DNA of 7,865 nucleotides from positions 1-7,865 of the forward strand of contig JAJYPA010000381.1 of NCBI GenBank assembly GCA_021795795.1, read 5' to 3'. Both the position numbers and the translations under genes were made by a program. Positions 3,034 to 6,341 of the stretch are shown here, one piece after another (positions within the stretch are counted from its first letter, which is position 1; each line of letters begins with the position of its first letter). Origin of the DNA: Pseudomonadota bacterium. Lineage in GTDB: Bacteria > Pseudomonadota > Gammaproteobacteria > Halothiobacillales > Halothiobacillaceae. Under the pieces are notes generated by a model. It was given only the letters and a program-made list of their open reading frames with translations. It ran no database searches and had not been told where the DNA came from.

Positions 3034-3498
3034 CTAACGTCTCCATTCATAATCTACGAAATCCCAGGCAAGTTGTCCATTGGGCTCCTTAAAACAGGGG
3101 GCTGCGGTGACCAGCCCGGATGTTTGGGATGGTGGGGATGCCGCCATGGCCTGGAGGTAGGCCAACAGCCGTCGGCGTTTTTTGCTTACCGCCTGCCGTG
3201 AGCAGCCCATCATCCTGGCCAACTCCGCCTGACTTGCACCAGGGAACTCTAGACGGAGGGCAACGAGCCTGCGGATGGCGGGTGGGGCGAGCCGAACGAG
3301 GCGATCCACGTCGTCGGGGTCGGGTACATTCGAAAGCGGTAAGGACGCTTCCGTCGTCAAATCCTCCGGCAACTCTCCGCCCTGGGCGTGCTGCTGCCGC
3401 ATGCGGCGACTAGCGAGCGCCCGAGGAGTCGTCTTGGCAAATTGCGGGTCGTTGTGGAGCAACCATAGGTCGGCTGCATCAAGATGCGAGGATCTCAT
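3034..3498 (-). CDS. Sigma-region-4-like HTH protein, 154 aa
   Basis: The start chosen is the ATG at 3498, which has an excellent ribosome site (AAGGAGGAGGG) and overlaps the previous stop as ATGA; a longer frame to 3570 has no such support. The N-terminal part (HLDAADLWLLHNDPQFAKT, then ALASRRMRQQ) is a short helical region seen in small regulators of mobile elements. Residues 67-116 (LVRLAPPAIRRLVALRLE, then SQAELARMMGCSRQAVSKKRRRL) form a tri-helical HTH of the sigma-70 region 4 or Trp-repressor-like type. The C-terminal 35 residues are Pro/Ser-rich and end DYEWRR. There is no sigma region 2, so it is not a complete sigma factor. As last gene of the replication operon it could regulate element transcription or bind the origin; that is inference. 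Confidence 0.75.
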   Translation of the reverse strand: MRSSHLDAADLWLLHNDPQFAKTTPRALASRRMRQQHAQGGELPEDLTTEASLPLSNVPDPDDVDRLVRLAPPAIRRLVALRLEFPGASQAELARMMGCSRQAVSKKRRRLLAYLQAMAASPPSQTSGLVTAAPCFKEPNGQLAWDFVDYEWRR

Positions 3499-3938
3499 TG
3501 CCCTCCTCCTTGCGAGTTTATCTCGTCTGAGTTGAAGTGGGAGCATTTTCGAATCGCTCTTGGCCAGCATGCGCTTCCGTCTGGTGACAGTCCGCTACGC
3601 GTGAGAGCGCAACGGCCGAGGCCAAATACGGAGTCGCCTATATCTTGCGACATGGGCCAGAAATTTCCGCAGCTACAGCAGCGCAAAGATTCCAATTTCT
3701 GGGTCATAGCTGACTGCTGTTTGCCATTCCCAGCATGGATGGCAGCCGTGCGATTTTCGGACTGTTCCAAGCGCTCTGATGCCACCAAAGAAAGAAGGGC
3801 GGAGCGGTGCTCCCGGATGGCCTGCCGCAGTTCGTCAGTGAGCAATCCAGAAGGCCGAACCATGAGGCGGTCGCCCTTGACGGTGAGGGTGAGGCCCAGG
3901 CTCCTGAGTTCCGCCAAAAGAGAATCAGAACGCTTCAT
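3495..3938 (-). CDS. TubC-N-domain protein with Cys-rich C-terminus
   Basis: 147 residues. ATG at 3938 has GAGGAGG 7 nt upstream and overlaps the helicase 3' end by 14 nt. Residues 5-53 (LLAELRSLGLTLTVKGDRLM, then RPSGLLTDELRQAIREHRSALLSLV) match the TubC N-terminal docking-domain fold, first known from NRPS/PKS assembly lines but also common beside primase/helicase genes on proteobacterial islands. A variable linker follows, then six Cys (87, 88, 90, 110, 124, 132) in a CCSCG...GRC...ACWP...KC.HF pattern that suggests a zinc-binding module. No condensation or other NRPS domain is nearby, so a role in natural-product synthesis is unlikely; protein-protein docking within a replication or transfer complex is my inference. 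Confidence 0.75.
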   Translation of the reverse strand: MKRSDSLLAELRSLGLTLTVKGDRLMVRPSGLLTDELRQAIREHRSALLSLVASERLEQSENRTAAIHAGNGKQQSAMTQKLESLRCCSCGNFWPMSQDIGDSVFGLGRCALTRSGLSPDGSACWPRAIRKCSHFNSDEINSQGGGQ

Positions 3939-5220
3939 AGTCGCCCTCCTCGTCCTCGCTCGTCGCCTGGTTCCTCACTCCCCTCATGCCTAAAGGCAAA
4001 TGAGGAGAGTGAGGAGTAACAGAGGTTTCCTCGTTTTTCTCAAACGAGGGAGGTGAGGAATGTGAGGAATCGGTCAGAGAGACAAAAATCCCGTCTATGG
4101 TGATTAGTTGCCTGTCCTCTAGAGCGGCTGTCCAACGCGAGAAGTTGCGAATATCCAACCCTTCCTCTTTGGTGGTTTTACGCCAGTCGGACAATGCCAC
4201 TTTGGCGGCCTTCATGTCCCTGCCACCTTGCGCAAGGTTGCGTTCATGCTCGGCAATTAATCGCTTGAGAATGGACAGCACCAGCCTTTGCTTGTCGCCC
4301 AATCCTTTCTCCGGCTTGGTGGATACCTGGGGCAGGTCGCAGGGCACTAATACCGCGCTTTCGGTGGGGGTGCCGTCCTCGTCCGCCCATGCCTGGGGAA
4401 GCTCTACCGTGCGGAATTGGAAGGCTAGAGGCCGGGCAGTATCGCCCCCACGCTGCTTGGGGTTTATCAGGGCGATAACGCCACCCTCTCGCGGTTCCAG
4501 CACTGCCATGGTGTCGATTGCCCCCTTGAGTGAGGAATGGCCGCGCGGCTCACCTGGGGTAGTCTTACTAGGATGGTGAATTACCAGGCACGTGCAGTGA
4601 TATTTCTGCCGCAAGCTATCCAGGGCGGCAACAAATCCTCCCATGGCCTCAGCGCTGTTTTCGTCACCAGATAGCCCACGCTGCAAAGTATCCACAATCA
4701 CTAACCCGGGCGGTTCTGGCATCGCGTCGATTTCTGCCTGCATGAATGCCAGTGCGTCCGTGTCATTCAGCGCCACGCCCCCGCTGCTCAAGTGCAGAGG
4801 TGCCGCGATCAAGTCGTCATACACAATGCCCCAAGCGCAGGCCCGGCGTACCATAGCGGCTTGTCCTTCACCAGCCAAAAACAGCACACGAGCTTGCTTG
4901 GTGCGGATGCCGTGCCAAGGCTTCCCAAGCGCCACGCAGCAGGCCATATCTAGGGCGACAAACGATTTGCCCCGTCCCGGCTCTGCTATCAGCGCGGCAG
5001 TGGTGTTTCGTTCCAGCCAGCCACGCACAAGCCAGTCGATAGGTCGAGGGTGGGCCAGCAGTTCACCGATCGCGGTAAACAAAGGCGGGCGGGCCGCTTG
5101 CGGCTCCGGCATTTGAGCGCCAGCAGTAGGCGAGGCGGGGGTTTCCTTGTCGCAACCATAAGGGGGCACGGCGTCCCAATCTTTTGGGTTAAGCACGTTC
5201 CACCCCCTGCCGCTTGGCAT
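3925..5220 (-). CDS. RepA-like AAA/RecA-fold hexameric helicase
   Basis: 431 residues from the ATG at 5220. Walker A is at residues 79-86 (AEPGRGKS), preceded by WLVRGWLERNTTAALI; Walker B is LVIVD (173-177), followed by TLQRGLSGDENSAEAM; VIHHPSK (213-219) is the sensor strand and RGHSSLKGAIDTM (226-238) the arginine-bearing motif of RSF1010 RepA-type helicases (AAA_25, COG3598). Residues about 311-383 look like a winged helix, and the last 50 residues form a hydrophilic tail. It should unwind element DNA with the Toprim protein just upstream. A GTG at 5196 (codon 9) has a better ribosome site, AGGGGG 6 nt away, and overlaps the previous stop by 8 nt; that start gives 423 residues and may be the true one. 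The 3' end carries the unusual DNA repeats described at 3970-4070. Confidence 0.9.
   Translation of the reverse strand: MPSGRGWNVLNPKDWDAVPPYGCDKETPASPTAGAQMPEPQAARPPLFTAIGELLAHPRPIDWLVRGWLERNTTAALIAEPGRGKSFVALDMACCVALGKPWHGIRTKQARVLFLAGEGQAAMVRRACAWGIVYDDLIAAPLHLSSGGVALNDTDALAFMQAEIDAMPEPPGLVIVDTLQRGLSGDENSAEAMGGFVAALDSLRQKYHCTCLVIHHPSKTTPGEPRGHSSLKGAIDTMAVLEPREGGVIALINPKQRGGDTARPLAFQFRTVELPQAWADEDGTPTESAVLVPCDLPQVSTKPEKGLGDKQRLVLSILKRLIAEHERNLAQGGRDMKAAKVALSDWRKTTKEEGLDIRNFSRWTAALEDRQLITIDGIFVSLTDSSHSSPPSFEKNEETSVTPHSPHLPLGMRGVRNQATSEDEEGDYEAF
3970..4070. repeat. Three paired-TGAGG elements inside the helicase gene
   Basis: An about 18-bp unit, RTGAGGRRWGTGAGGARY, occurs three times: direct at 4053-4070 and 4000-4017, inverted at 3987-3970. 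Each unit has two TGAGG cores exactly 9 bp apart (cores at 4054/4063, 4001/4010, and CCTCA at 3973/3982). The inverted pair makes a hairpin over 3973-4014: 8 bp, one C-A mismatch, 6 bp, a 2-nt bulge, then 3 bp closing a short loop. The copies are read as SSHSSP, TPHSPH and MRGVRN, i.e. in different codon phases or orientation, so conservation is at the nucleic acid level. An additional half copy (GTGAGGAAT) lies at 4530-4538. Function unknown: iterons, a protein-binding array or an mRNA structure are all possible. Confidence 0.7.
4029..4049. repeat. Perfect 8-bp hairpin between the TGAGG elements
   Basis: CCTCGTTT and AAACGAGG flank a 5-nt loop (TTCTC). It lies within codons for the SFEKNEE part of the helicase tail, between two of the paired-TGAGG elements. 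No T tract follows on either strand, so it is not a typical intrinsic terminator. Confidence 0.6.
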
Positions 5221-6076
5221 TCAGCACGTCCAGCCAATCCGTTGCGCCATCAGGAATCTCGGCGGGCGGGGGCAGGATGCGGGCACGGGCTTTCTCGGCT
5301 GCTTCCTGTCCTTTTTGGCGGCCTACCTTATCGAAGTCCGGGCAGATCACGATATCCAGTGTAGGCCAGCAGTTGCGGGCTTCTATGGCTGTGCTGGCGA
5401 GGTTCCCGGCGTCAAGGCCAGCAATGCAGCACACCTCCGTGCGCATGATTTGCAAAGCACAGGCGGTGCCCCAGCCCTCACAAATCCAAAGCGGGCGGCT
5501 GCCGTCCGGCTTTGGGCCTGCAGGTATCCACGCCCCTCGCTTCGCCATGCCCGCAATGAAACGCTTTTGCCCATCCGGTTGTATGTACTGCACCCCGCGC
5601 AGGTGCCCGGTGAAATCCACCACAGGCAAAACCAAAGATGCCCCGCGCTGCCGGGCAATGCCCGGGGCAAGACGCTTGCGTTGCAGATACTCATGGGACG
5701 GGCTAGCAGGCTCGGCATGATTCCATACCCACGCGCCCCGCTGGGCGGCTTCCCGGTGCCGTGCCTGCTCCCCGGCCTCGCGCTCGGCCTGTTCGCGCTC
5801 GATACGGCGGCGCAGTGTATCCCGCTCGGCTGGGCTGAGGCGTCCCGGCCGCTTGCTGCACCACGTCACCTGACAACCAGTCCGCCAGTCACCAGCAACA
5901 CCAGCAGGTGGTGGGTCAAGGTGCAGGCGATACCAACCTGTTCGCTGCCCTGCCTTGTCAGTGGCGAGGCGGACCCGGTGCAGTTTTCCGTCTGGGGTTA
6001 TGCTCTGGCCTGGGGCAAGCTCAATGCCGCCAGCAGCAAGAGCGGCGACGAATTGCTCGATGATGTCTGAGGCCAT
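5189..6076 (-). CDS. Toprim-domain primase-like protein
   Basis: 295 residues from the ATG at 6076, 4 nt after the preceding stop; an upstream frame to 6157 would run through the HTH gene and reads as non-domain sequence. The N-terminal part (residues 33-68, including RLATDKAGQRTGWYRL and GDWRTG) resembles the leader of P4-alpha and plasmid primases. Residues 85-117 are a charged, probably coiled helix rich in E/R/A. YLQRKRLAPGI through VVDFTGHLRGVQYIQPDGQ (130-170) leads into the Toprim fold: catalytic Glu in ICEGWGTA (E200), Asp pair in CPDFD (D247, D249), and a C-terminal DWLDVL. No zinc finger is visible. It probably synthesises or supports primers for element replication with the RepA-like helicase encoded directly downstream. 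Family confidence is high; enzymatic activity is inferred. Confidence 0.88.
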   Translation of the reverse strand: MASDIIEQFVAALAAGGIELAPGQSITPDGKLHRVRLATDKAGQRTGWYRLHLDPPPAGVAGDWRTGCQVTWCSKRPGRLSPAERDTLRRRIEREQAEREAGEQARHREAAQRGAWVWNHAEPASPSHEYLQRKRLAPGIARQRGASLVLPVVDFTGHLRGVQYIQPDGQKRFIAGMAKRGAWIPAGPKPDGSRPLWICEGWGTACALQIMRTEVCCIAGLDAGNLASTAIEARNCWPTLDIVICPDFDKVGRQKGQEAAEKARARILPPPAEIPDGATDWLDVLNAKRQGVERA

Positions 6077-6080
6077 TGGA

Positions 6081-6341
6081 TCAGCTATCCGCGCCTTGTC
6101 GGCGCTTAGCAATCCAAGCGGCAAGATCTGCCACACGATAACGCACCAATCGGCCAACTTTTATGTAGGGCAAGTTGTAACGCCCCGTGGTGCGCCAGTT
6201 AGTCAGGGTAGAGACTTTGACGCCCAACACTTCAGAAGCAAGCTTTTCGTTGATTTGTACGGGGATGGCTTCAGGTGGGTAGCCCAGGGTACGACCAATC
6301 TCTGCGACAATCGGGGCCACAGATTCAAAATTGCTGTGCAT
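6081..6341 (-). CDS. AlpA/excisionase-like HTH protein
   Basis: 86 residues. The C-terminal half (about 29-80) is a MerR-type winged HTH as in AlpA and excisionases (HTH_17): INEKLASEVLGVKVSTLTNW, the turn RTTGRYNLPYIKVGRLVRY, and RVADLAAWIAKR. The N-terminal 28 residues (SVAPIVAEIGRTLGYPPEA) are helical. Such proteins activate element genes or assist excision by bending DNA. It is the first gene of the replication operon, and its ribosome site GAGG (6350-6353) lies within one arm of a perfect inverted repeat, so translation could be blocked by a hairpin or the site could be an operator for the protein itself. The next gene starts 4 nt after its stop. Confidence 0.85.
   Translation of the reverse strand: MHSNFESVAPIVAEIGRTLGYPPEAIPVQINEKLASEVLGVKVSTLTNWRTTGRYNLPYIKVGRLVRYRVADLAAWIAKRRQGADS

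Follow-up and report, generated by a model that had tools for sequence, protein, structure and literature searches.

The plasmid pRN1 carries, directly 3' of its rep gene, a stem-loop of about 100 nt which is needed in cis for replication, has a conserved shape but not a conserved sequence, and is sufficient in cis together with the replication operon (PMC4234260, accessible part). The same part of that source gives the replication proteins of the pRN1 family a C-terminal winged-helix domain, states that gel shifts with the replication protein failed, and reports that the replication protein of Bordetella phage BIP-1 is followed on its 3' side by a similar stem-loop (PMC4234260). In the PICI and SaPI elements, the origin is described as lying immediately 3' of the replication initiator/helicase gene and as containing two iteron sets; in SaPI, Rep recognises the origin through its C-terminal domain, and a rep-ori plasmid of EcCICFT073 was maintained, with deletion of either rep or ori impairing maintenance (PMC6092414, PMC7581432, in the parts available). 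Lambda and Stx phages are reported to have iterons within the coding sequence of gene O, which are bound by O, extra iterons lengthening the protein (13 residues) (PMC7466680, accessible part). In the PLE satellites of Vibrio cholerae, ori and the DNA-binding domain of the initiator covary and have been swapped at least twice, and cognate pairs were shown (PMC8263062, accessible part). In the IncQ plasmid RSF1010, a separate protein, RepC, reads the iterons, and ssi hairpins prime replication (mentioned in PMC4234260).

The window analysed here, the whole 7,865 nt stretch of contig JAJYPA010000381.1, carries part of a mobile island. A RepA-type helicase of 431 amino acids, which we take to be an SF4 enzyme, is encoded at 3925-5220 of the minus strand (AAA_25, residues 46-220, Pfam PF13481, E=1.7e-41). 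RSF1010 RepA (1g8y, E=2.6e-11) was the sole PDB match at E<=0.1 of a profile made from this helicase and 28 relatives, and the families matched in Pfam and PHROGs were helicase/primase families or families of unknown function, none of them O-family. Directly upstream of the helicase gene lies a Toprim primase ORF (5189-6157, minus strand; Toprim_3, E=2.2e-08; PHROG DNA primase, E=3.6e-45), and an HTH_17 excisionase-like ORF is found at 6081-6341 on the same strand (PF12728, E=8e-09; PHROG 66, excisionase and transcriptional regulator, E=1.8e-07). The helicase stop is overlapped by the start of a TubC_N-domain ORF (3495-3938, minus strand; PF18563, E=1.1e-10), and an ORF at 3034-3570, also on the minus strand, has a weak sigma-4/HTH-like match in Pfam. 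The C-terminal domain of the helicase (residues ~303-380; 4081-4314, minus strand), which tracks the iteron core across relatives and is the proposed iteron reader, is winged-helix-like by sequence pattern only, and had no Pfam match and no significant PDB sequence match. No RepC-like protein was found among the seven ORFs of the window compared with PHROGs and the ten compared with Pfam, the window being only part of the island. Elsewhere in the window, a 5'-open reading frame (1-339) encodes a nearly exact tandem repeat with a unit of about 45 residues (AVDSLHINWDKEAVRSAKQYL...), and a DUF4850 ORF (588-1295, E=1.4e-8) with a signal-peptide-like start is unrelated to the replication genes.

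The named close relatives are labelled Acidithiobacillus, Igneacidithiobacillus and, in one case, Thiomonas. The locus from Acidithiobacillus sp. YTS05 (L001) is 89% identical to the window across 5 kb, and a tyrosine integrase lies upstream of its primase-helicase genes. Next to the island there (L001:71-4240) is a replication gene of the Prim-Pol/DUF3987 type, which has a tyrosine integrase of its own, and two integrative elements seem to lie side by side.

The pattern TGAGGNNNGTGAGGA, with up to two mismatches allowed, matched five times in the window, a number reached in none of 200 dinucleotide shuffles. Three matches were exact (3972-3986, minus strand; 4001-4015 and 4054-4068, plus strand), one had a single mismatch (4045-4059, plus strand) and the match with two mismatches at 2983-2997 is likely to be due to chance. 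The TGAGG cores are spaced 9 bp apart. The array extends from 3971 to 4070, 46-145 bp before the end of the helicase ORF, and consists of two adjacent imperfect palindromes of 9-bp iterons, which are about 10 bp apart, an AT-rich melting region between them not being obvious from the sequence. Unit I (4027-4070, minus strand), as recognised by hairpin and pattern searches and by folding, has the iteron doublet TTCCTCACA TTCCTCACC followed by a small hairpin, CCTCGTTT-TTCTC-AAACGAGG (plus strand 4029-4049). Unit II (3971-4016, minus strand), recognised by hairpin search and folding, has two iterons, a small-loop apex (GCCTTTAGGC on the coding, minus strand, 3988-3997) and two inverted iterons, and forms a long hairpin with arms of 16 nt (3972-3987/4000-4015) which are 94% complementary. 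Folding of the array gave z values of -4.37 as DNA (plus strand) and -4.77 as RNA (minus strand), and none of 200 shuffles was as stable in either case. When the amino acids were kept and synonymous codons were redrawn from the gene's own codon usage, 0 of 1000 redraws reached three exact pattern matches, 0 of 1000 had five copies of a 6-mer and 2 of 1000 folded as stably. The paired TGAGG elements given in a preliminary description, two direct and one inverted within 101 bp and in the last 150 bp of the helicase gene, are thus confirmed by the exact matches and their position, and chance doublets, which that description had named as a possible objection, are not borne out by the redraws. What goes beyond it is the additional small hairpin at 4029-4049 and the arrangement as two palindromic units side by side.

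Acidithiobacillaceae loci, read by eye from the DNA, have the same plan in the same place with different cores: TTCCTCA in L001 and L002, GCGTCA in L003/L006, GCATCA in L009, L024 and L026, CCCCAAA in L011, CGAACG in L014 and L015, GTAACG in L025, CGTCCGA in L016 and, just behind the stop codon, GCAAAT in L012. Between these relatives the direct and inverted copies change together, with the consequence that the encoded tails shift from SSHSSP..EENEE to ASSASS..NDAND and to NTPNTPN. In viral contigs and in phage or plasmid records, the module lies across the helicase stop or behind it (cores GGGACA, CGTAACA, GCGCACA, GGTACA, GGTTCA, GTATAA and others), and this position, which is found in many phages and in L012, indicates that the module is a nucleic-acid element. 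A scan of the viral contigs with the window helicase protein itself found no relative.

The frequency of such arrays was counted in 109 loci (those scoring at least 100 bits to the A1 profile, 12 chosen phage and plasmid records, and the window), which formed 44 helicase clusters at 60% identity with the complete region required; the representative L026 was an interrupted ORF and not the correct one. At least four copies of one 7-mer were present between 200 bp before and 250 bp after the stop, with 0 of 100 shuffles having as many, in 23 of the 44 clusters, and at least four copies were reached in 4 of 42 control stretches of ATPase-coding sequence. In 17 of 28 cluster representatives (at least 4.5 kb), the strongest repeat interval of the whole locus lay within -250 to +300 of the helicase stop. 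The strict repeat test was failed by 21 of the 44 clusters, narrowly so by the window's own (4 copies, 2/100 shuffles), because its iterons diverge. A hairpin or module was seen by eye in the failing clusters L011, L028, L134 and L146, and nothing was seen in some others, e.g. L045, L057, L097, L098, L120, L142 and L147. The IncQ2 repA L144, from a replicon with its own RepC, had no array at the repA 3' end and behaves as a negative control.

Some further loci had features of their own. The more distant Acidithiobacillaceae helicase relatives L017, L018, L033 and L034 have GCGCC-type repeats in the 3' ends of their genes, and no CTTTAG-type apex hairpin was seen in the ends examined. Ten phage or genome modules (L036, L044, L054, L068, L092, L117, L122, L136, L137 and L140) have cores ending in ACA (GGGACA, GTAACA, GCGCACA, CCGGACA, GTTACA, GGTACA and GTGACA), which suggests a recognition site with a fixed and a variable part. 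L143 (CP018459.1, a 17-kb Klebsiella plasmid record) and L145 (NZ_CP031350.1) have a capsid gene near the RepA-helicase region and iteron arrays (TGCGGC and AAAGTGAG) just behind the helicase gene, and look like satellites or plasmid-prophages. In L010/L026 (G023:C1 762015-764263), a close relative of the helicase gene is split in two by another ORF, presumably transposase-like, and the second piece retains the iteron module.

The core was compared with the domains of the helicase in a set of 29 rows, the window and 28 relatives, in which core classes S (TCCTCA-like, 16 rows) and A (GCRTCA-like, 10 rows) were labelled from the protein tails; P0028 was left unlabelled though its tail looks N-type, and the DNA cores of L001, L002, L003/L006, L009, L024, L026 and L011 were read by eye. 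On the tree of the ATPase domain, the S label needs eight changes, a count as low in 112 of 500 shuffles, and well-supported branches force at least four. On the tree of the C-domain, S needs two changes and A three, and none of 500 shuffles was as low. In all 26 labelled rows, S and A can be told apart by a one-residue insert that precedes the presumed recognition helix. P0010 and P0011, with a domain otherwise like that of the A-type P0020, are without the insert and have S-type tails, the core in both being deduced from the protein.

Pairs of loci with DNA and with ATPase domains at least 55% identical were also compared, iteron-encoded tails being avoided or delimited in the C-terminal identities here and in the phage-family and exchange comparisons. 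The five same-core pairs had ATPase/C-domain identities (%) of 95/85, 85/79, 83/75, 93/96 and 94/87, the C-domain thus being from 10 points below to 3 points above the ATPase domain, whereas in the 19 different-core pairs it was 6 to 56 points below (e.g. 92/36 for L016/L025, 76/44, 80/57 and 94/75, with 73/65 and 73/67 at the mild end), the ATPase identities of L006 and L016 resting on part of the domain because of partial ORFs (frame break; contig end). The two ranges overlap, and large drops were found only with a change of core. As core and C-domain are physically adjacent, recombination alone would carry both together and linkage may mimic coevolution; of these comparisons, only P0010 and P0011, where a domain that is otherwise A-type has changed locally, speak against pure linkage. 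We infer from the covariation that the C-domain of the helicase binds the iterons. The neighbouring TubC_N protein was considered as the reader and rejected: it does not track the core, being 77% identical between L016 and L025, which have different cores, and only 40% identical between the window and L002, which have the same core, and no TubC_N-like start is present in L026 or L011.

As judged from sequence comparison, it is the helicase's C-terminal domain that the core accompanies, and not the ATPase domain or the TubC_N neighbour. Searching with the Idiomarinaceae phage 1N2-2 helicase yielded a phage family of 37 loci. Thirty-five loci were read, made up of the three phage records L136, L139 and L140 and of 32 from this family; left out were L148, which duplicates L136, L152, L159 and L177 (too little sequence behind the gene) and L184 (partial match). 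Of the 35, 28 were kept (four had fewer than five copies and three were fragments). At ATPase identities of at least 85%, all 15 same-core pairs keep a similar C-terminus (0.83-1.00, mean 0.96) and all 11 different-core pairs have a dissimilar one (0.27-0.66, mean 0.38), copy counts being without shuffle control and the pairs sharing loci. At ATPase identities of 0.70-0.85, same-core and different-core pairs had values of 0.42 (n=6) and 0.38 (n=98), and at 0.55-0.70 values of 0.40 (n=3) and 0.31 (n=244), a weak contrast. All 11 different-core pairs are formed among six contigs of a single metagenome (L165, L166, L167, L168, L169 and L171), with ATPase segments 97-99% identical and three core labels, two of them related, and so represent two or three switches.

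In a few pairs the limits of the exchanged segment could be placed. L166 and L169 align to stop-340 and again from +276/+161. L016 and L025 are 88% identical to stop-392 and 85% identical from stop-31, and the differing stretch is an in-frame segment of about 360 bp, wholly inside the ORF, which holds the C-domain and the module. L014 and L025 differ likewise, from about -338 to -28, and the differing stretch of L002 and L003 is shorter (-153 to -74). With the putative reader and its sites on one segment of this size, origin specificity would be exchanged as an in-frame cassette. That the exchanged segments end at the module, with flanks that stay alike, is the sharpest argument against mere linkage, yet recombination of neighbours would also account for it.

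The small-loop apex of unit II stays similar while the stem varies (CCTTTAGG, TCTTTAGA, CCTATAGG, TCTATAGA, CTCTTAGAG), and CTNTAG-type or closely related apices recur in other families. Hairpins of this type with a stem of at least five pairs were found in 15 of 44 representatives, in 0 of 43 control stretches and in 7 of 2200 shuffles, the apex expression having been framed after examples were seen and thus not being independent of those families; they are accordingly frequent, not universal. The strict form was present in 11 of 26 repeat-positive representatives, among which L141 (4 copies, 2/100 shuffles) was probably counted by chance, and in 4 of the 18 others, and the window's own apex stem is one pair below the threshold. 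The CTNTAG-type apices have CTA on at least one strand, which is suggested as a candidate primase start site. In L146 (Polaromonas plasmid pPNAP03, ~4020-4120), a very long hairpin with the apex CCCCCTTTAGGGGG lies right behind the RepA helicase gene with hardly any direct iterons, and is possibly a reduced form of the module.

The array is likely to be the replication origin of the island, or the core of it, placed in the last ~150 bp of the island's own helicase gene and bound by the C-domain of that helicase. The preliminary description had offered an origin, a binding array for an HTH protein of the element or an mRNA device controlling the downstream genes; the first fits best, the second is not favoured and the third is less likely. 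In the proposed mechanism, the two palindromic units of 9-bp iterons would be bound by the winged-helix-like C-domain encoded immediately upstream in the same gene, and the RepA-type ring helicase would thereby be loaded where its own gene ends. The hairpin of unit II would then be extruded or unwound, its exposed small-loop apex (CTTTAG, CTATAG and variants) might serve priming by the Toprim primase of the element, as the ssi hairpins of RSF1010 do for RepB', and a host polymerase would take over after the primase start.

The array could also be bound by the C-domain without being an origin, as an operator or an incompatibility or copy-control locus through which the helicase would limit its own expression or copy number. 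The association between core and C-domain predicts binding only and not origin function, and iterons commonly serve both origin and control roles; the present array may do so as well. We nevertheless regard an array without origin function as rather unlikely: the array occupies the 3' end of the gene instead of a promoter position, a search for sigma-70-like promoters gave none at 3400-4300, and the function-tested sites 3' of rep genes are origins in a Gram-negative PICI and probably in pRN1, as far as the available parts of the accounts go.

It is quite improbable that the hairpins act in the mRNA, by attenuating or coupling translation of the TubC_N and HTH genes that lie downstream, or by stabilising the message. 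The RNA fold is strong (z -4.77) and, in the hairpin flanks of 33 loci, a set that includes near-duplicates and some palindromes other than unit II, G.T mismatches exceeded A.C mismatches by 13 to 4, a mild lean which hairpins of single-stranded DNA would equally allow. An RNA hairpin, however, needs no direct 9-bp iteron repeats, and similar modules lie behind helicase genes with different downstream genes, which makes such a device less likely. The TubC_N proteins do not track the core, and the swaps join the module to the C-domain of the helicase. No terminator-like site was found at the array and no Rfam match at gathering thresholds, so a known structured RNA and an intrinsic terminator were both rejected as candidates.

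The element has HTH genes, and the recurring apex suggests a shared additional factor, so that the sites might be those of another protein (an HTH protein of the element, the primase or a host factor) merely linked to the helicase gene. In the delimited pairs, however, only the C-domain and the module differ, with DNA alike on both sides, and we consider such a protein very unlikely. The HTH proteins at 3034-3498 and 6081-6341, put forward in the preliminary description as possible readers, are likewise not favoured, as the core tracks the helicase's own C-terminal domain. A protein repeat of a disordered tail, spread by codon slippage and without a role as nucleic acid, would agree with direct copies that are in frame (9 bp being three codons) and encode SSHSSP-like repeats in relatives, but can practically be dismissed in view of the inverted copies, the synonymous redraws, the concerted change of both arms and the non-coding instances of the module in L012 and in phages. 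The earlier statement that the motif is not a protein repeat holds, since the module is retained where the amino acids differ and, in L012 and many phages, is found outside the ORF; the reverse, amino acids kept and doublets lost, was not seen among the loci with DNA read.

An origin at the 3' end of the helicase gene would provide a rule of thumb by which candidate origins and their likely cognate reader could be located in phages, satellites and islands from sequence alone; origin annotation was absent in all 12 annotated phage and plasmid regions examined. The variable helicase tails (SSHSSP, ASSASS, NTPNTP) would be explained as dictated by the DNA. The matched natural sets, with ATPase domains 92-99% identical and different C-domains and cores, could be used for testing how origin specificity evolves. 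Origin switching might be driven by incompatibility of elements that share a cell, or might serve to evade nucleases directed at the origin, as has been reported for PLE and Odn (PMC8263062, accessible part).

More tentatively, and with somewhat more doubt than confidence, the modules may represent a widespread unrecognised replicon class of phages, satellites and integrative islands with RepA-type helicases. In this class, origin specificity would reside in a self-contained cassette of ~250-600 bp, the DNA-binding domain of the helicase with its own sites inside or just past the ORF. Swapping of such units would place many mutually incompatible origin types on near-identical helicases, in the manner of restriction specificity subunits, and the recurring CTNTAG-type apex would preserve a common priming step. 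If this is true, the many natural pairs would make a recognition code from domain to iteron readable.

Compared with the known systems, the module resembles pRN1 in that a stem-loop is found at or behind the 3' end of the rep gene with its shape kept and its sequence not. pRN1 has a primase-polymerase with an SF3 helicase, whereas an AAA_25/RepA-type helicase and a separate Toprim primase are present here, and the pRN1 origin is said to lack iteron structure, whereas the present module has clear 9-bp iterons and lies inside the ORF (PMC4234260, accessible part). PICI and SaPI likewise have a pair of iteron sets where the initiator gene ends, and of the genes expected of such an island L001 has a tyrosine integrase upstream and the primase-helicase. 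In the accounts available, however, the PICI/SaPI iteron sets flank an AT-rich region downstream of the gene, whereas here they are inside the gene and form hairpins, with no obvious AT-rich stretch. RSF1010 is similar in that the window helicase is a relative of its RepA, and differs in its separate iteron-binding initiator, no RepC-like counterpart of which was present among the window ORFs compared.

As in the lambda ori, the iterons are inside a replication gene, that of the helicase, by which they would be bound, as judged from covariation. Lambda O is an initiator, whereas the protein here is a helicase and not of the O-family; the lambda iterons lie mid-gene beside an AT-rich region, and the accessible part of the source describes nothing like the paired palindromic units and their recurring apex (PMC7466680). 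In PLE, the ori is intergenic and RepA_N is an N-terminal domain; the two do not form one continuous cassette, as the putative reader and its sites do here (PMC8263062, accessible part). Among the matches listed in searches of open-access literature, none describes iterons and hairpins forming a module where a RepA-type helicase gene ends. What is new is the combination of RepA-type helicases, iterons with a recurring-apex hairpin, a position within the gene, and a putative reader and its sites on one exchangeable segment.
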